Below are positions 12,264 through 20,497 of a stretch of DNA of 44,865 bases, one piece after another (position 1 is the stretch's first letter; each line of letters starts with the position of its first letter). This stretch comes from Deltaproteobacteria bacterium (GTDB lineage: Bacteria; Myxococcota; Myxococcia; Myxococcales; JAHFDP01). The stretch lies in assembly GCA_023248955.1 (NCBI GenBank), contig JAHFDP010000005.1:48827-93691 (forward strand), in the 5' to 3' direction. The position numbers and the translations under genes are program-made. The notes under the pieces were generated by a model. It had not been told where the DNA came from. It searched no databases and saw only the letters and a program-made list of their open reading frames with translations.

Positions 12264-13136
12264 CTACCGCACCAACTCGCGCATGTATGCGATCAACCCA
12301 TCCCGCAACTCCGGTCGTTTCATCGCGTACGCCAAATTCGCTTTCAAATAGCCGAGCCGATCTCCAGCATCGTGTCGCGTGCCTTCCAACTCCACGCCGA
12401 TGAGCCGTCCCTCAACCGCGAGTTGCGCCAGTGCGTCCGTAAGCTGAACCTCCCCGCCCGCGCCGGGCTTCACCTTCCGCAAGATCGCAAAAACATCCGG
12501 TGGCAAAACGTAGCGACCGATGATGGCGAGATTCGACTTCACCGTTCCCGGCTTCGGTTTTTCCACGAGGTGTTCGATCGCAGTTCGTCGCGCCCCCGCA
12601 GATTTTCCTGTCGCGATTCCGTACAGCGAAGTTTCCCTTTCCGGCACCGCAAGCAGCGCGACTGCGCCCTTCCCTGTCTCTTGCGCCACACGCACGAGCT
12701 GTCCGATTCCCGGGTCCACGCTGTCGATGAGATCGTCGCCCAGCATCACCGCGAATGGCTCGTCGCCTACCGCCGCCTCTGCGCACAGCACCGCATGTCC
12801 CAATCCCAGCGGCTCTTTTTGTCGCACCGAATGCACGTGCGCCAAATTCGCAATCGCACGCAGCCCATCCGCCTGCGCCGTTTTTCCGCGCGCGCGCAGC
12901 GTCGTCTCCATTTCGAACGCAATGTCGAAGTGATCCTCGATGGCGCTCTTACCGCGGCCGTTGACAAGCACCACGTCGGTGAATCCCGCAGCGACGGCCT
13001 CCTCGACCACAAGCTGCAACGTCGGCACATCGACGATGGGCAAGAGCTCCTTCGGAATCGCTTTGGTGGCCGGCAAAAAACGCGTGCCCAAGCCCGCGGC
13101 GGGGATGACGACTTTGCGAATTTTCCAGTCGGCCAT
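12264..13136 (-). CDS. galU: UTP-glucose-1-phosphate uridylyltransferase
   Basis: A 290-residue nucleotidyltransferase making UDP-glucose from UTP and glucose 1-phosphate, feeding exopolysaccharide, LPS and trehalose synthesis. The nucleotide-binding signature AGLGTRFLPATKAIPKELLP (residues 12-31) is complete, followed by the family's EEAVAAGFTDVVLV, LGLGHAVLCA and VMLGDDLID with the metal-binding Asp. The end VELEGTRHDAGDRLGYLKAN is characteristic of GalU. ATG 13134-13136 gives the usual N-terminus; an ATG at 13169 is also possible. It is divergent from an outer-membrane protein gene. Confidence 0.93.
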   Translation of the reverse strand: MADWKIRKVVIPAAGLGTRFLPATKAIPKELLPIVDVPTLQLVVEEAVAAGFTDVVLVNGRGKSAIEDHFDIAFEMETTLRARGKTAQADGLRAIANLAHVHSVRQKEPLGLGHAVLCAEAAVGDEPFAVMLGDDLIDSVDPGIGQLVRVAQETGKGAVALLAVPERETSLYGIATGKSAGARRTAIEHLVEKPKPGTVKSNLAIIGRYVLPPDVFAILRKVKPGAGGEVQLTDALAQLAVEGRLIGVELEGTRHDAGDRLGYLKANLAYAMKRPELRDGLIAYMRELVR

Positions 13137-13192
13137 GGGCAAATCTTTACCACGGACAACCATACTCACCGAAGGCGCGCTAAACTGCCCCC

Positions 13193-14020
13193 ATGCTGTG
13201 TATTACATTCGCGATCGCTTCGATCATTGCCGCCGCAGCGCCGCCCGGCGGACCTTCTGGACTCGACGTGACCACGCGCGCGCTCGGAATGGCCGACGCC
13301 AACCGCGCCATCGCCACCGGCAACGACAGCGTCTACTTAAATCCCGCTGGCGCAGCTTTCGGGCATCGCTACACCATCGAGTTCGACGGGGTGCGCGACG
13401 TGGCCACAGGCGGATTCGTCACCGGCGCGTCGGTGGTCGATTCCACCTCCTCACAACCAGTCGCGGGTGCCTTCAGCTACACGCGCTGGCAACTCGGTGA
13501 CGTGACAGGAAACGTCGTTCATTTGGGATTTGCCTATCCCGCGTCGCCGAAATTTCTCATTGGCACCACCACAAAATATCTAGGACTCTCCGGCCCCGAT
13601 GGCGACGTAAGCCGATGGACTACCGACATCGGTGCCCTCATTCTCACCGGCCCTTTTTCACTCGGGTTCGTTGGACAAAACCTCGTCCCCACGCATTCCG
13701 CGCTCGCGCCAGTCGGCATTGGCTACGGCATCGCGTTTGGCGAGGACACCACGTTTCGCCTGGCCATCGACGGAACGACCACGTTTCTCCCAGGTGGTGT
13801 ACGCGCACTGTCGACGAAAGCTGGCGCGGAATATCTCGTGAGCGGAGCTTTTCCAATTCGCGCCGGCGTCGCCTACGACTGGACCACGCGCGCTTACGAT
13901 TTTGCGGCCGGCGTCGGATTCGTTACACCGCAAGCGGGAATTGATCTCGGCTACCGACAACCCGGCCATGGTAACGGAGCGCGCTACCTCGGCGCCGCGC
14001 TAAAGTTTTTCATCGAGTGA
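13193..14020 (+). CDS. Outer-membrane beta-barrel protein, PorV/FadL-like, function unknown
   Basis: A 275-residue exported protein: signal MLCITFAIASIIAAAA, then TRALGMADANRAIATGNDSV and YLNPAGAAFG, a start typical of barrel proteins of the PorV/UPF0164/FadL type (a mature N-terminus with Asn-Pro-Ala-Gly). The rest shows alternating hydrophobic and polar strands of 8-10 residues, and the protein ends in a barrel strand (YLGAALKFFIE). No plug or ligand motif is visible. It overlaps the convergent btuD gene by 21 bases at its 3' end. Transport or assembly role is possible but unproven. Confidence 0.7.
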   Translation: MLCITFAIASIIAAAAPPGGPSGLDVTTRALGMADANRAIATGNDSVYLNPAGAAFGHRYTIEFDGVRDVATGGFVTGASVVDSTSSQPVAGAFSYTRWQLGDVTGNVVHLGFAYPASPKFLIGTTTKYLGLSGPDGDVSRWTTDIGALILTGPFSLGFVGQNLVPTHSALAPVGIGYGIAFGEDTTFRLAIDGTTTFLPGGVRALSTKAGAEYLVSGAFPIRAGVAYDWTTRAYDFAAGVGFVTPQAGIDLGYRQPGHGNGARYLGAALKFFIE

Positions 14021-14788
14021 TGGCAGCACGATGGGCGCGCCCGTCTTTGGATCGGCGATGACACGCACGCTCGTTTCATAAGCGGCCGCGAGCGGCGCGG
14101 GTGCGAGCACATCGTGAGGAGCGCCACTCGCCACAACACTTCCACGTGAAAGCAGCGTCAGGTGATCGCACACCGCGCCGGCAAACGAGAGATCGTGCAC
14201 GACTACGAGCGCACCTCCACCGCGGGCGGCGTGCGATTTCAGTGCGCGCGCAAGATCCGTTTGATGCGCCAAATCCAGCGCGCTGGTTGGTTCGTCGAGA
14301 ACAACGAGCGGCGCGGCCTGCGCGATCGCGCGCGCTAAAATGCAGAGCTGTTTCTCGCCACCGGAAAGCGTGTCGAAAGCGCGTTCGGCGAGATGCGAAA
14401 TGCGCACTTCGGCGAGCGCAGCATCGGCGAGGCGCACATCTTCCGCGCTCTCCAGTGCGAGCAAGCCCAAGTGGGGCGCACGTCCCATCAGCACGACTTC
14501 GCGTGATGTGAACGGCAATTCCGTTGGAATCAGTTGCGACACCAGCGCCGCGCGCCGCGCGGCTTCGCGACGCGGGAGTGCGTGCGCATTTGTTCCGCCC
14601 AGGAGAGCCTCACCGAACCGCGGTGCGAGAAGTCCGCACAAAAGCCGCGCCAGCGTTGATTTCCCGGAGGCGTTGGGGCCAATCACGCCGGCGATTTGGC
14701 CGCGTGTAATCGAAAGCGATACATCCGTGATCACGTCGCGCACGCCATAAGCGAACGAGACGCGCGACAATTCGCCGAGCGCTGTCAC
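14000..14788 (-). CDS. btuD: ABC transporter ATPase, vitamin B12 import (BtuD type)
   Basis: A 262-residue ATPase of the iron-siderophore/cobalamin family. Walker A GPNASGKS (residues 37-44), the ABC signature LSGGE (141-145), Walker B LVVLDEP (161-167) and the switch His in VVHDLS are all intact. The start GTG at 14786-14788 overlaps the permease stop (GTGA) and has AGGA just before it, so the long open frame upstream is ignored. It energises the permease encoded immediately upstream. Its substrate is assigned from the riboswitch that heads the operon, not from the ATPase itself; iron-siderophore use would look the same. Confidence 0.88.
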   Translation of the reverse strand: MTALGELSRVSFAYGVRDVITDVSLSITRGQIAGVIGPNASGKSTLARLLCGLLAPRFGEALLGGTNAHALPRREAARRAALVSQLIPTELPFTSREVVLMGRAPHLGLLALESAEDVRLADAALAEVRISHLAERAFDTLSGGEKQLCILARAIAQAAPLVVLDEPTSALDLAHQTDLARALKSHAARGGGALVVVHDLSFAGAVCDHLTLLSRGSVVASGAPHDVLAPAPLAAAYETSVRVIADPKTGAPIVLPSLDEKL

Positions 14789-15798
14789 GTCTTTTCCTGT
14801 TGTCGCGCGAGGAGCCAAAGAAAGAGTGGACCACCGAGAAGTGCGGTCACCACGCCAACGGGTGGCTCTGTACCGAGCGATCGAAACAAAAGTCGCGCAC
14901 CCGTATCGGCGAGCACCAGCGCGGCCGCGCCGCCCAAAGCGCAAGCGGGCACCAGCGATCGGTGATCGGGACCGAGGATCAAGCGTGCCGCGTGCGGAAC
15001 GAGAAGTCCGACAAAGCCAACCAGTCCCGCGAGTGAAACCGCAGCACCGGTTACGAGCGACGCCGCGAGAAAAAGTGCGCCGCGCGTGCGCGGAACATCG
15101 ACGCCGACCGCTGCCGCGCCCTCCTCGCCGAGCGCGAGGAGATTCATGCGACCGGCCAGAATCATCATCGTGAAAATTCCCGCGGCGGAAAAAGCGGCGG
15201 CGACGAGGAGCGCGGTGGGCCGCTCGTAGCCGAGTGATCCGACGAGCCACGAGAGCAGTGTCTGTGCGCGCGACGGCGAAACGGAAATCTTAATTCCGGT
15301 GATGACCGCCGAGGCGAAGGCGTTGAAAACGACGCCGACCAGGAGCGCGCGCTCAGGAACGAGGCGACCGCCGACGCGGCCCAATGCGTAAACGCCGAGG
15401 GCGGCAGCGAGCGCGCCAGCGAATGCCGCGACGGCGACCGGCGAAAAGCCGGCGGTGGAAGCGACACCGAGCACGGTTCCCAGTGCGGCGAAGAGCGTTG
15501 CGCCGAGCGCGGCACCGCCGGAAACGCCGAGTACAAAAGGATCAGCGAGTGGATTGCGCAAGAGCGCTTGCAAGGCGAGCCCCGCGCTGGCGAGACACGC
15601 TCCGACCAGCGCGCCAAGCAGCGCTCGCGGCAAACGCAGCGCAACGACGATGTCGCGATCGGGAGGAACTCCGCGCCAGGCGCGGCTCAGATCGATCGGC
15701 TCCGCTCCGGTGGCCACGGCGGCGATCAGCGTAAGCGTAAGCAAAATGCTAAGTGTGATCGTCACCGCAAGGGCGCGCGCGAGCGGACGCGGCGTCAT
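14785..15798 (-). CDS. btuC: FecCD/BtuC-type permease, vitamin B12 import
   Basis: A 337-residue integral membrane protein with about ten hydrophobic helices, the usual size of BtuC/FecCD permeases. Family landmarks are RLPRALLGALVGACLASAGL, QALLRNPLADPFVLGVSGGA and GFVGLLVPHAARLILGPDHR near the C-terminus, the last forming part of the ATPase coupling surface. It would move cobalamin from the binding protein across the inner membrane. ATG 15796-15798 overlaps the stop of the binding protein gene (ATGA), and its own stop overlaps the ATPase start, so the operon is tightly coupled. Confidence 0.9.
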   Translation of the reverse strand: MTPRPLARALAVTITLSILLTLTLIAAVATGAEPIDLSRAWRGVPPDRDIVVALRLPRALLGALVGACLASAGLALQALLRNPLADPFVLGVSGGAALGATLFAALGTVLGVASTAGFSPVAVAAFAGALAAALGVYALGRVGGRLVPERALLVGVVFNAFASAVITGIKISVSPSRAQTLLSWLVGSLGYERPTALLVAAAFSAAGIFTMMILAGRMNLLALGEEGAAAVGVDVPRTRGALFLAASLVTGAAVSLAGLVGFVGLLVPHAARLILGPDHRSLVPACALGGAAALVLADTGARLLFRSLGTEPPVGVVTALLGGPLFLWLLARQQEKT

Positions 15799-16589
15799 TT
15801 CTTCTCGTGCGGATGCAGGGCTTCGTCGATTTCGTCGAGCGCTTCGCCGAGCCGCGGACCGGGTCGCAAAATCGCCGGAGAGGCCAGTTGCACCACGCGG
15901 GCGCGCGACAGACCGGGCGGCAATCGAAGCGATTCGGCGGCGTCCGGCGCCACGAGAATCACGTTCGGAGAAAGCGCGACTGCGCGCTCCGCGGCTATCG
16001 TCGGAAACGGCACCGCCGATTCGCCCGCCACATTGTCTGCCCCCGCATCCGCGAGGAGTTCGCCAGCAAACGATCCTTGGCCAGCAACAACGAGTGGCGC
16101 GGTTCCCAAGACCAGCAGCGCACGCACGGGCGAAAGCTTCGCGACGCGCGCACGCACGCGTTCACGGTGCGCCGAAATTTCCGCGGCGATCTGCTCTGCT
16201 TCAACTTTGCGCGCAAGCAGTGCACCCATCGCGCGCACGGTTTCCTGGACGTCGGCCACCGTGTTGAGCTGATACGCAACGACCGACACACCGAGCCGCG
16301 CCAGCACTTCCACCACGCCGCGATTTCCCGGTGACGGCTGCGCAACGAGCAAGTCCGGATGCAGCGCCAGGATCGTCTCGGCCGACGGATCGCTGTAACC
16401 ACCGACGCGCGGCAACTTCGCCACGCGGGGATCGTCGTCGTAGCGCGTGACACCGACGAGCCCCTCGCCAGCACCGAGCGAGAGCACGATCTCCGTGAGG
16501 CTCGGCGCCAGCGTGACGATGCGCCGCGGGTTGGCGCTGGGCGCGGGGCCCAGCGTCAACACCGCGGCAAGGAGAAAACTACTGAGCAT
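15795..16589 (-). CDS. btuF: Periplasmic cobalamin-binding protein (BtuF type)
   Basis: A 264-residue class III (cluster A) solute-binding protein. Signal MLSSFLLAAVLTLGPAPSAN is followed by RRIVTLAPSLTEIVLSLGAG, the standard opening of BtuF/FhuD-type proteins, then VGVTRYDDDP and VGGYSDPSAETILALHPDLL. It has the two-lobed pattern joined by a helix (about 120-150). Start ATG 16587-16589 lies within the end of the propeller lipoprotein gene (11-base overlap). It would pass B12 from the outer-membrane receptor to BtuCD. It appears complete. Confidence 0.88.
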   Translation of the reverse strand: MLSSFLLAAVLTLGPAPSANPRRIVTLAPSLTEIVLSLGAGEGLVGVTRYDDDPRVAKLPRVGGYSDPSAETILALHPDLLVAQPSPGNRGVVEVLARLGVSVVAYQLNTVADVQETVRAMGALLARKVEAEQIAAEISAHRERVRARVAKLSPVRALLVLGTAPLVVAGQGSFAGELLADAGADNVAGESAVPFPTIAAERAVALSPNVILVAPDAAESLRLPPGLSRARVVQLASPAILRPGPRLGEALDEIDEALHPHEKK

Positions 16590-17682
16590 GAAATTCGACG
16601 CGCGCGACTTTGTTCGTCAAGTTTTCCGTGACGTAGAGCACGTCGGGAGCCACGACGGCGAGGTTGTAGGGATTCGATCCGTCCTCGAGGTGGGCCACGG
16701 CGAGGACCCTCAACTTCTCCGGATCGAATTTGACGACGTTGTTGGTTCCAGAATCCACGATGTAAGCGGCGCCGTCCGCAAACACGACCTGCTGCGGCGC
16801 TGCCTTAGCCGTACCACCACCCGTGAGATCAATCGCGCTCTTCGACGTGCTCAGCGTCGCACCCGAAGAAACGCGGTCAACGGAGTTCGCCAAGCTAGAT
16901 GCGACCCAGGTGTCCTTGCCATCCCAGGCGAGGCTGACCGGCCCATCGGAAACCGTGGCGCTGGCGTCCGCAATGGGCTGGCCGGTCACGCGGTTCAACG
17001 CGACGATCTGGTTGGTGTTGAAGCAAGCCGCCAGCAGTTGCGATCCCGTGTCGACGAGATCGGCGACGAAGGCGAGTCCTTTGCTATTCGCCGGGCAAAC
17101 CATAATTGGCGCAGCGCCACCGCGGCCGTTCTGCACGACGTGGCTCACGGCATCGACGCGGAGAAGTCCGCCGCTGGCCGCATCGCCAATGAAAATTTCG
17201 CCACCCGCGCGAACGGCCGTGCCGGGAGCAGCGCCGGTGTCGATGACGATCGCCGTATCCGTGGTCGTATCGTAGATGGCGAGGCCAGCACCGCCAGCCG
17301 CACTTCCCGAGAAATCGCCCGCGCAAGTGATAATCAAGTTCGATCCATCAGCCCGCGCGAATCCAGGATCGCGACAAGCGCCGAGCGAAACGGTCTTCTG
17401 TATTGCATTCGTGATCGGATCGATCACAACGACGAGGCCGGGGCCTCCGGCGGTGTAGTCCGGAGCGAGGTTGGTGAGCACGACGTAGACATTTCCGCCG
17501 ATGGCCGCGATGCCCTGTGGAGCGGATCGGGTGCTCTTCCCGCTGTCTGGTAAGAGCGCCGTGCCACTCGGAAGATCGAGGGTGGACGCGACTTTCCCGG
17601 TCCAGGATTGTGGAGCCGCCGGATTCGAGGTCGTGGTTCCACCACAAGCAGCAACGAGGGCAACGAGACAAATTCGTTTCAT
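16579..17682 (-). CDS. Beta-propeller (YncE-like) lipoprotein in the B12 operon; BtuG-like candidate
   Basis: A 367-residue predicted lipoprotein: MKRICLVALVAACGG has the lipidated Cys at residue 13. The mature protein shows repeated propeller blades, for example GNVYVVLTNLAP, GGEIFIGDAASGGLLRVDA, DTWVASSLANSVDRV, GAAYIVDSGTNNVVKFDP and DVLYVTENLTNKVARVEF. The gene lies between the BtuB receptor and btuF, with an ATGA overlap, under the cobalamin riboswitch. In Bacteroides a surface beta-propeller lipoprotein, BtuG, binds B12 very tightly and hands it to BtuB; the same position and fold suggest a comparable job here. Sequence homology to BtuG itself cannot be judged by eye, and an unrelated propeller is possible. 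Confidence 0.75.
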   Translation of the reverse strand: MKRICLVALVAACGGTTTSNPAAPQSWTGKVASTLDLPSGTALLPDSGKSTRSAPQGIAAIGGNVYVVLTNLAPDYTAGGPGLVVVIDPITNAIQKTVSLGACRDPGFARADGSNLIITCAGDFSGSAAGGAGLAIYDTTTDTAIVIDTGAAPGTAVRAGGEIFIGDAASGGLLRVDAVSHVVQNGRGGAAPIMVCPANSKGLAFVADLVDTGSQLLAACFNTNQIVALNRVTGQPIADASATVSDGPVSLAWDGKDTWVASSLANSVDRVSSGATLSTSKSAIDLTGGGTAKAAPQQVVFADGAAYIVDSGTNNVVKFDPEKLRVLAVAHLEDGSNPYNLAVVAPDVLYVTENLTNKVARVEFHAQ

Positions 17683-19628
17683 GACGATTCCTTTTCGGTT
17701 GGAGTTGACGACTCCCAGCGAAGCGTCGCATTCACGGCGCGGCCAGGAAGGGGATAGCCAGAGATCTCTTCGAGCGTCTGTTGGTCGAGCAAGTTGGAGA
17801 CCTCGGCGCCGATCCAAAAACCGGCACCAAGGCGAATGGATGCGCCCGCGTTCACGAGGGTGCGGGTGGCGAGAAAAACGGTTGCGGCGCGGTTCACCGG
17901 CGTGCGCGATTGTGCGGACAATTCGGCGAACGCGCGGAGACGGTCGCCCTCCCAACCCGCGCGCCCAAGGAAACCGTGCGGCGTTCGGTAGGGCACGGGA
18001 TTTCCGTGCACGCCGGCAAGATCGATCTCATTGCGCGAAACGAGGAGTGCGTAGCCAAGCTTGGCGCGAAGTGCGCGGCGACGAAAATGCGCAGCGACCT
18101 CGCCGCCCCAGAGCGTGGCGCCGGGGAGATTGAATGGGCGCACTCGCGCCGGCGGGTAGAGCTCGTAAAGAATGAGGTCGCGGTAGCGCGTCCAAAAAGC
18201 ATCGGCGGAGAGCGAAACCATCCCGAAGCGCCACGTCGCACCACCGTCCATTCCAACGTTGCGTTCGGGCACGAGATCAGGATTCGGGGTGAGCGGACCG
18301 GACGCGTAGTAGAGCTCGAAGAAACTGGGCGCGCGGCGACCGGCACCGCCACCGATGCGAAACTCGAGGGCGCTATCGGGACGAATCACTAATCCCGCCC
18401 GTGGGCTCACGCCGCCAAAATCGCCTTGGCGTTCCGCGCGGACCGCTGCGATGAAAAGAAGCGGATCGAACATGCGCCATTCCCACCCGCCGCCGACAGC
18501 TACGGAAGCGCGAGCCGGATCGCCAAATGCCGCCGAGAGTAGTGACTCGCGCGCACCGTCAATTGTGAAGCGAAAAAGATGACGCTGGGCGGCCTGCCAA
18601 GACGAGTGAAAACGAACGCCGGCGTCACGCTCAAGTGCATCGAGCGGAAAATCACCACCGCGTACCGATCTGTTGTCCCGTCGGAAATAGATCATCGTTT
18701 CGGCATCGAGCGTGTTCCAAGATCCTGCGGCGCGCGCCGATGCGTTGAGGTTGCCTTCATTTTCCCGAGCGCTGCTCGGTAAAGCTCCACGCGGCGAGGG
18801 AAGCCCTCGATCAAGGAAGGTCGATTGAACCAAGACGCCTGCCGAAATTCCGTCGTTTTCGAAGATGGCCTTGCCGAGCACGGCTGCGCGCGAAGCGTCC
18901 GCTCCCTGGCGTATCGTAGTCACGTCAGCGGCCGAACCGGGAAGCTCCGGCGTTGGATCGTAGCGGTAGGGAAAATCTCCAGCCGTACGAAAAAAGTCGG
19001 CGGCAGCGAGCCATCTCCACTGACCGCTAGCTCCTACGACGCTCCCGGAAAGCGCGCCCGTTCCGAATGATCCAATCGAGATCGCAGAGTCGATCGCAAC
19101 GGGAACGACGGACCGACGCGTGACGAGCACGACGGCTCCGCCCATCGCCCCTGCACCGTAAAGAGCGCCTACCGGACCACGAATCACATCCACGCGGTCA
19201 AGGAACCCGGCGGGCAACGCGGAAAGATCAACTCCGCCACCAATAGCGCCGGTAATTGGAAAGCCATCGAGCAACACGACGACTTCGTCGCTCGAGGAGC
19301 CGCGAATTGTGGCGGTCGATGCAGCTCCCGGCCCTCCGAATCCCCGCACGCCTGCGCCCGGGACTTGTGCGACCAGATCTTCGATCGTCCGAAGTCCGCC
19401 AGTCAGGTTCACGTCAACCGATTCCGACGACGCTGTTGGATCGATCCCTGCGTGCGTTCGTGGTGCACGAATGACCACGGGCGGCAGCACGAACGCCGGC
19501 CGTTCGTCTCCGGACGTCGCTGGCTCACCGGCCATGGCCATCTGGGCGCAGCCAAGCCAAACCACGAGCCCGATGGCGTTGAAACGTTTCGCTAATGCGC
19601 CCGTTCGGGCGAAATCGTACGGCGGCAG
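17679..19628 (-). CDS. btuB: TonB-dependent vitamin B12 receptor (BtuB type)
   Basis: About 649 residues. After a signal peptide (VVWLGCAQMAMA) comes the TonB-box region (PPVVIRAPRTHAG), the plug domain (TIEDLVAQVPGAGVRGFGG, TIRGSSSDEVVVLLDGFPI, RVDVIRGPVGALYGAGAMGG) and a 22-strand barrel of usual length. The first barrel strands, RIGGGAGRRAPSFFELYYA and the end of the protein (LPGRAVNATLRWESS) are typical. The start is unusual: no ATG, GTG or TTG gives a full signal peptide below the riboswitch, but a CTG at 19626-19628 with AGAGG seven bases upstream does; a GTG at 19565 would leave too short a signal. It heads the operon and its stop overlaps the propeller gene (ATGA). Confidence 0.88.
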   Translation of the reverse strand: MPPYDFARTGALAKRFNAIGLVVWLGCAQMAMAGEPATSGDERPAFVLPPVVIRAPRTHAGIDPTASSESVDVNLTGGLRTIEDLVAQVPGAGVRGFGGPGAASTATIRGSSSDEVVVLLDGFPITGAIGGGVDLSALPAGFLDRVDVIRGPVGALYGAGAMGGAVVLVTRRSVVPVAIDSAISIGSFGTGALSGSVVGASGQWRWLAAADFFRTAGDFPYRYDPTPELPGSAADVTTIRQGADASRAAVLGKAIFENDGISAGVLVQSTFLDRGLPSPRGALPSSARENEGNLNASARAAGSWNTLDAETMIYFRRDNRSVRGGDFPLDALERDAGVRFHSSWQAAQRHLFRFTIDGARESLLSAAFGDPARASVAVGGGWEWRMFDPLLFIAAVRAERQGDFGGVSPRAGLVIRPDSALEFRIGGGAGRRAPSFFELYYASGPLTPNPDLVPERNVGMDGGATWRFGMVSLSADAFWTRYRDLILYELYPPARVRPFNLPGATLWGGEVAAHFRRRALRAKLGYALLVSRNEIDLAGVHGNPVPYRTPHGFLGRAGWEGDRLRAFAELSAQSRTPVNRAATVFLATRTLVNAGASIRLGAGFWIGAEVSNLLDQQTLEEISGYPLPGRAVNATLRWESSTPTEKESS

Positions 19629-19708
19629 GGCGTACCTCTTTCTCTCGAAGAGGAAAAAGCCCGCGACCCCAGCCGCCGCACCATGCGTCGGCCGAGATCG
19701 CAAATGGA

Positions 19709-19900
19709 TCGATGGGCAGGTCTCCTGGCTCCCAGGTCTGCCGCTCCAAAACTTCAGAGCTGCGCGCTCCACCTCGCCTTCCCCGCCTCTCTAGGCGAGT
19801 GGAGTCGAGAGCGGTGCTGCCTGGCTACAGTGGCGGGACCGCGCCGGCTTCAGCACCGGCTTCCCTTGAAATCCGATTTCGCAACCGGATCACCCATCGA
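19709..19900 (-). promoter_or_regulatory. Cobalamin (AdoCbl/B12) riboswitch of the btu operon
   Basis: On the minus strand the aptamer has the conserved core GGGAAGCCGGTG, then the CGGCGCGGTCCCGCCACTGT block (B12 box, about 19820-19845), and the 3' AGCCAGGAGACCTGCC element (about 19714-19730). The closing P1 stem is UCGAUGGGU (19892-19900) with GCCCAUCGA (19709-19717). Length 192 nucleotides. The downstream leader (19629-19708) contains a hairpin CCTCTT/AAGAGG that could serve as the expression platform just before the btuB start. When B12 is plentiful such elements shut off translation or transcription of the uptake genes. Confidence 0.93.
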
Positions 19901-19950: not shown

Positions 19951-20280
19951 TCATTGCGGCTCCCTTTTCGTTGGAAGAACAACAGCAGAACGGACCGGCG
20001 AAGGGCGTGCTGTCAGGTGAGCACGCAGTCGCCGCGTGAGGCTCCGCCCGAATCCGCGAACATGCACCAGCTCATCCGGCGAACCAAACGCGTGCTCCTT
20101 GCGACGCTCGACGACAGCACGCGCTCGCTTAAGACCAACACCGGGCAAACGCATGAGCTGGGCTTCAGTTGCACTGTTGATGTCGATCGTTTCGCTTTCG
20201 GCGAGCGGCGTCTTCGTCTTGGCGTGCGCAGCCGCCGAGAATCCTATCAAGGCCAGCGCAGCCACCACGGCGCAGCGCAT
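19951..20280 (-). CDS. Exported helix-hairpin-helix (ComEA-like) protein
   Basis: A 109-residue protein with a signal peptide (MRCAVVAALALIGFSAAAHA) followed by a single ComEA-type helix-hairpin-helix repeat: IDINSATEAQLMRLPGVGLK, RARAVVERRKE, FGSPDELVHVRGFG. Such proteins bind double-stranded DNA in the periplasm during natural transformation, though short stand-alone copies occur in many genomes without competence genes. ATG at 20278-20280 lies one base after the stop of the preceding small gene, so the two are coupled. No other competence genes are in the window. Confidence 0.85.
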   Translation of the reverse strand: MRCAVVAALALIGFSAAAHAKTKTPLAESETIDINSATEAQLMRLPGVGLKRARAVVERRKEHAFGSPDELVHVRGFGRSLTRRLRAHLTARPSPVRSAVVLPTKREPQ

Positions 20281-20281
20281 C

Positions 20282-20497
20282 TCAGGCTCCCCCGACGAAA
20301 GCAGGCGCCATTGCGTCCGCGCGCTTTTCCGCCCGTTCCTTAAGGCGAAGTCGCCCATTTAAGGGAAAGGTATCGACAAACACTTCTATCGTGTTGTCTG
20401 GCTTAACGAAGGCGTATCCGACGCGATTGAAAAACGGCTCACGGCCATCTTTTTCGGAAATCGAAAACACGCCATACATCTTCTTCGGCTCGCTCAT
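20282..20497 (-). CDS. Small conserved protein of unknown function, upstream of comEA
   Basis: A 71-residue soluble protein, MSEPKKMYGVFSISEKDG then REPFFNRVGYAFVKPDNTIE and VFVDTFPLNGRLRLKERAEK. I recall this short family (a beta-rich pattern with WNRVG or FNRVG and LPLNGKLHIR) in other deltaproteobacteria, sometimes next to ComEA; no function is assigned. ATG 20495-20497 is selected because GGAGGAG precedes it; the ORF is open 31 codons further. It ends one base before the ComEA start. A possible operator lies about 100 bases upstream (20598-20631). Confidence 0.7.
   Translation of the reverse strand: MSEPKKMYGVFSISEKDGREPFFNRVGYAFVKPDNTIEVFVDTFPLNGRLRLKERAEKRADAMAPAFVGGA

Follow-up and report, generated by a model that had tools for sequence, protein, structure and literature searches.

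In Myxococcota, the gene that stands directly after btuB in a cobalamin riboswitch-associated operon, encoding a predicted lipoprotein with a β-propeller fold (hereafter LP), has been recurrently circularly permuted in place. No description of such an in-place permutation was found in the literature searched. As for the role of this protein, we lean towards considering LP an outer-membrane lipoprotein that serves BtuB as a dedicated partner; it would capture corrinoids and hand them over to the receptor, and would thus function in a BtuG-like manner while standing outside the BtuG family. The recurrent permutation is better supported than this analogy with BtuG.

The B12 uptake operon and its lipoprotein gene

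The window analysed is a stretch of 44,865 nucleotides from contig JAHFDP010000005.1 of a myxococcal genome (G000). A single unit on its minus strand, between positions 14000 and 19907, contains a cobalamin riboswitch followed by btuB, the LP gene, btuF, btuC and btuD (Table 1). The initial annotation, made from the letters alone, had described precisely this order with each gene overlapping the next, and the description holds, the four junctions overlapping by ATGA (btuB/LP), 11 nt (LP/btuF), ATGA (btuF/btuC) and GTGA (btuC/btuD). The LP reading frame is therefore placed immediately behind the receptor, in a BtuG-like position, as had been claimed. The span originally given (16579-19900) takes in the LP gene, btuB and the riboswitch, but leaves btuFCD outside.

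Table 1. Features of the minus-strand B12 uptake unit (positions in the window)
Feature	Position	Strand	Basis
Cobalamin riboswitch aptamer RF00174	19698..19907	-	cmscan 93.4 bits (gathering score 31.5 bits), E 4.5e-22, full model 1-189
btuB, TonB-dependent B12 receptor	17679..19697	-	PF07715 and PF00593 (plug, barrel)
LP, 367-aa lipoprotein, seven-bladed β-propeller, register A	16579..17682	-	ORF, lipobox, AlphaFold2 (predicted fold), same slot in relatives
btuF, periplasmic B12-binding protein	15795..16589	-	best NCBIfam model PRK03379 BtuF, E 3.9e-30; PF01497
btuC, permease	14785..15798	-	best NCBIfam model BtuC, E 5.4e-67; PF01032
btuD, ATPase; its GTG start overlaps the stop of btuC	14000..14788	-	ABC_tran (Pfam)

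The unit combines the elements of a BtuBFCD uptake operon, namely a cobalamin riboswitch, a TonB receptor, a FecCD-type permease, a Peripla_BP_2 protein and an ABC ATPase. The best NCBIfam match of the receptor is the B12 receptor model TIGR01779 (E 1.7e-35, under the model cut-off), and for btuD the corrinoid ATPase model PRK09536 (E 6.7e-63) ranks third, after an F420-0 model and a heme model, the best models being generic. That the operon proteins miss the equivalog cut-offs is expected, since they are distant orthologues. The btuB reading frame, which ends at 17679, extends up to 19772, with no clear ATG start 3' of the aptamer; candidate starts are an in-frame TTG at 19703, within the aptamer 3' end, a GTG at 19565 and an ATG at 19541. 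The operon is flanked by galU, an outer-membrane-protein-like gene and a helix-hairpin-helix gene (12264-14020 and 19951-20358), and the same genes surround it in families f5 and f7, constituting a long-range conserved neighbourhood.

A scan of the whole genome found no cobalamin riboswitch other than this one. The genome encodes several B12-binding enzymes, and neither CbiD nor CbiC was found in a search of it, so that the organism probably depends on corrinoid uptake. Thus, it is probably a corrin auxotroph, with the operon in the window as its sole riboswitch-controlled uptake operon.

The arrangement of btuB and LP behind the riboswitch is not local to the window, and the suggested check for the same pair in related genomes found it there. 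When positions were compared in the 40 nearest genomes (order Myxococcales), 35 had LP on the strand of RF00174, 2-4 kb further downstream. The remaining five comprise G032, where the locus is cut by the contig end, G004, G008 and G014, with weak matches for which positions are not given, and G019 (69% complete), with neither an LP nor a riboswitch match. In 20 neighbourhoods from this order, a btuB-like gene directly precedes LP and btuF follows wherever the sequence is readable; all loci readable on both sides have LP between btuB and btuF. Further Myxococcota also carry LP, the profile matching in 163 of 179 genomes of the phylum, although the weak matches may be other propellers. No LP was found in virus contigs, and PADLOC gave no match.

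Recurrent circular permutation of the lipoprotein

The lipoprotein nature read from the letters is sustained at the level of prediction by a signal peptide and a lipobox (MKRICLVALVAAC-GG), and an N-terminal signal with its Cys, indicating predicted lipidation, is found in 41/41 LP orthologues. The proposed β-propeller is not evident when LP alone is compared with Pfam (best E 0.029), but it is supported by family profiles and by structure prediction. AlphaFold2 gives a seven-bladed model for the window LP (pLDDT 70.5, pTM 0.76), in which an N-terminal strand, residues 30-36, closes blade 7 (Velcro 1-3), and the model of one relative has the same layout (pTM 0.78). Both models are of moderate confidence, were built from two-sequence alignments and cover the window LP and one relative, neither of them a permuted orthologue.

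In many relatives, the LP profile matches as two pieces in swapped order, and the assignment of 41 LP proteins yields four registers. Register A, the native order, is found in f1 (the family of the window), f7, f8 and genus g10 of f3. Register B, in which positions 215-368 are followed by 24-214, is present in f2, f4, f5, f6 and genera g3 and g19 of f3. Register C (255-368, then 26-254) corresponds to f11, and register D (about 91-366, then 28-88) to f10; the riboswitch is present for these last two registers as well. When sequences of registers C and D were doubled, a single full-length match was regained in 6/7 cases (for L225, from 146 to 197 bits). The two segments of doubled register-B sequences did not merge, because a Cys-rich spacer intervenes, and this register was assessed by crossed BLAST segments.

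Taking into account that propeller blades are alike and their registers confusable, it could be argued that the permutations only reflect misaligned repeats or faulty assembly. We regard this as extremely improbable. In the comparison of L048 (register A) with L221 (register B), both from f3, residues 37-233 align with 330-527 and 236-401 with 151-320 (41% and 44%, respectively; E 1e-36 to 1e-39), and landmark cysteines retain their blade identity across registers. Moreover, register B is seen in the single-contig genomes G005, G022, G033 and G072. The four chain breaks fall in A-B loops (registers B and C) or in C-D loops (registers A and D, the break of A being placed by the strand order of the window model), giving Velcro 3-1 or 1-3 closures, which are the two common in nature, 2-2 being rare (PMC8458387).

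The tree of BtuB, BtuF and BtuC requires at least four register changes, with A arising twice, and in it the f3 members of register A nest with those of register B (100% SH-aLRT). The operon-gene and LP trees conflict at deeper joints (f5, f6, f8), and they include long branches; the number of events is fixed no further than two for A/B. In the LP tree, calculated in a common register, the f3 A and f3 B proteins are sisters (100/98.9) and a single clade for register A is rejected (p-AU 5.5e-8). Thus, the LP gene underwent repeated permutation within its slot, and was not replaced.

Circular permutants of propellers have been engineered, as in WRAP-T and Pizza, in which the fold is kept and the termini are moved between strands (PMC8458387). 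Unlike these, the LP permutants are natural, recurrent and orthologues occupying one operon slot. The four permutations in a single operon gene constitute a natural experiment in propeller evolution, in which the slot and the conserved face are the same while the chain ends and the anchor differ.

Comparison with BtuG and other propellers

BtuG, reported from Bacteroidetes alone (PMC6143338), forms a seven-bladed lipoprotein lid over BtuB; its pocket is lined by Trp194, Trp272 and Tyr316 (PMC10404256). Femtomolar cobalamin binding and a stable, surface-exposed complex with BtuB also characterise BtuG. The claim that no surface helper of this kind is described for the group of the window agrees with the literature searched, in which none was found. 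Like LP, the Bacteroides proteins BtuG1, BtuG2 and BtuG3 (PF16819, DUF5074; PDB 3DSM, 8BMX, 8OKV, 8BLW) are acidic, seven-bladed propeller lipoproteins whose genes adjoin btuB downstream of a cobalamin riboswitch (PMC6143338, PMC10404256). The net charge is -18 in BtuG2 (PMC10404256) and ranges from -5 to -45 in the LPs, being acidic in 41/41 (-10 in the window LP). In contrast, the window LP, in which GGTTTSN follows the Cys, lacks the Bacteroidetes-specific signal for surface export that comes after this residue, MKWD in BtuG2 (PMC6143338). The BtuG sequences in print, together with the rotated profile alignment, suggest for BtuG a closure like that of registers B and C, whereas the window LP has a Velcro 1-3 closure.

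The initial annotation had itself named a likeness limited to a generic propeller as refuting BtuG identity, and such a limited likeness is what was found. PF16819 gave no match for the window LP at E 1 or for 13 members of the LP family at E 0.1, while six Bacteroidota PF16819 proteins match it at 1e-12 to 1e-32. With both LP models, Foldseek returns generic propellers of seven and eight blades, namely WD40 proteins, Vgb lyase and YncE; no BtuG entry is among the top 50 in either case. Thus, the assignment of LP to the BtuG family is not supported by these sequence and model comparisons, the fold evidence going no further than a generic propeller.

It might still be thought that LP and BtuG are true homologues, derived from one ancestral B12 propeller and diverged and permuted beyond the reach of ordinary searches, which we consider unlikely. 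The best PDB sequences for the permuted LP profile are those of BtuG1 (8ptf, 8ptd, 8blw; E 1e-5, colinear over 235 positions), and an alignment of the LP profile with a doubled BtuG profile is full-length only after rotation (97.5% probability, score 95.6 vs 74.2 unrotated), BtuG then beginning near the start of register B. However, the unpermuted profile prefers 1l0q, an archaeal surface-layer propeller, as its best PDB sequence, and repeat proteins align in several registers. Furthermore, control propellers reach hhalign scores against the LP profile comparable to those of BtuG, although these controls were single sequences, partly picked for matching the LP profile, and the comparison is not clean either way. 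Since the controls scored as high, the hhalign match was rejected as specific for BtuG.

A shared pocket, in which C196, C220 and F221 of LP would correspond to C169, C193 and W194 of BtuG, was also rejected as proof, because C169 is kept in only 4/31 BtuG proteins and the register is ambiguous. Trp194 is Trp in 29/31 BtuG proteins; LP has no conserved Trp, and the residue of the window LP aligned to Trp194 is F221 or T70, depending on the register.

Other accessory proteins can be compared with LP. The E. coli protein YncE (PDB 3VGZ) is, like LP, a seven-bladed propeller encoded near a TonB receptor gene (that of PqqU), and it appears in the Foldseek top lists of both models; unlike LP, it lies outside any B12 operon, and it has no clear sequence match with LP (low hhalign score; PDB profile E 0.001). 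BtuH and BtuJ (DUF4465) are accessory B12 lipoproteins of riboswitch loci, as LP would be, with a different domain. DUF4465 proteins have been reported from Myxococcota also, and DUF4465 genes are reported to neighbour those of PF16819 propellers (PMC13398666), the family that LP does not match. Taking into account that LP is missed by the BtuG family model, helpers of this type may be commonly missed.

Conserved face, location and proposed function

Of the LP positions, 27 are conserved over all four registers (in 80% or more of the 41 sequences), among them C120, C196, C220, N71, D167 and P338. With strands taken from the window model, the 14 conserved positions that lie in loops are all in D-A/B-C loops and none in A-B/C-D loops (116 and 46 loop positions compared, respectively; Fisher p 0.007), and the four chain breaks lie on the opposite face. 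The anchor is always N-terminal to the propeller and the blade order is rotated; therefore, the point of anchoring has travelled around the disc with the conserved face unchanged. This face may be the one that meets the corrinoid and BtuB.

In Myxococcus xanthus, Lys tends to occupy +2 in lipoproteins of the inner membrane, while those of the outer membrane follow no rule (PMC3222651). The residue at +2 is Gly in the window LP and, among 41 N-termini, Lys in L050 only, so that most LPs should reach the outer membrane, which is the likely location on the basis of these N-termini.

By default Lol sorting, established for E. coli, outer-membrane lipoproteins face the periplasm, and this counts for an alternative that we find somewhat unlikely, in which LP, anchored in the outer membrane, would point into the periplasm and there either relay B12 from BtuB to BtuF or aid the folding or assembly of BtuB. 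The propeller lipoprotein BamB or the periplasmic YncE might act in this way, YncE being a solved propeller encoded beside an E. coli TonB receptor, and the LP gene adjoins btuF as much as btuB. On the other hand, two features fit reach at the cell surface better, without proving it: the conserved Cys pairs, which mark LP as a disulfide-rich extracytoplasmic protein, and the spacers of about 100 residues that, in register B, separate the lipid from the propeller and consist of Cys-rich, disulfide-rich, Stig1-like or MXAN_6577-like repeats.

Returning to a BtuG-like working of LP at the surface, this is our best guess, from the position of the gene, the riboswitch, the lipobox, the acidity and the single conserved face. 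Against it stand the lack of any BtuG-specific signal in sequence or fold, the absence of a conserved Trp194 and of the Bacteroidetes export signal, and the fact that pairs of receptor and propeller serve other ligands too, as with pqqU beside yncE in E. coli. We infer that LP is oriented outwards, forms a complex with BtuB and contacts B12. Under low B12, the riboswitch would permit expression of btuB-LP-btuFCD, as in a B12-repressed uptake operon. LP, held by its N-terminal lipid at BtuB and with the D-A/B-C face towards corrinoid and receptor, would then capture or hold the corrinoid and pass it to BtuB, after which BtuF and BtuCD would finish the import.

It is very improbable that LP, instead of being a binding lid, is a surface enzyme of propeller fold whose substrates are corrinoids or their carriers. 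The lyase Vgb is present in the Foldseek lists, and the conserved Asn71, Asp167 and Pro338, located on one face, could be catalytic; nevertheless, no enzyme family signature above threshold was obtained with Pfam or NCBIfam, and no conserved His/Glu cluster exists at the 80% level.

A broader reading, which we put forward tentatively and with some doubt, is that Myxococcota possess a B12-capturing lid of BtuB that evolved independently of that of Bacteroidetes, the lid gene having been permuted in place several times, so that the anchor and hinge moved while the side facing B12 and the receptor stayed fixed. The BtuG-like role would bring to Myxococcota a concept taken from gut Bacteroides, that of a lipoprotein assisting the B12 receptor, and the series of registers allows one to test if the hinge of such a lid has to stay in one place.

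The number of Stig1-like and MXAN_6577-like repeats varies between L043 (7526-8926) and other register-B loci. In L051 (7723-8994), from a groundwater MAG labelled 'Deltaproteobacteria', an EF-hand/dockerin-like and propeller protein lies between btuB and btuF; it is not found by the LP profile at 1e-2, and therefore propellers may have had more than one origin in this slot, or have diverged more widely. A second pair of a btuB-like gene and a register-B LP is present in genome G011 (L049, 5124-8452); the 16 kb read there contains no cobalamin riboswitch, neither btuF nor btuC lies alongside, and the pair is possibly a paralogue for another ligand. In G039, a further cobalamin riboswitch is located directly 3' of LP (L236, 7744-7967), so that the downstream genes there have their own switch.
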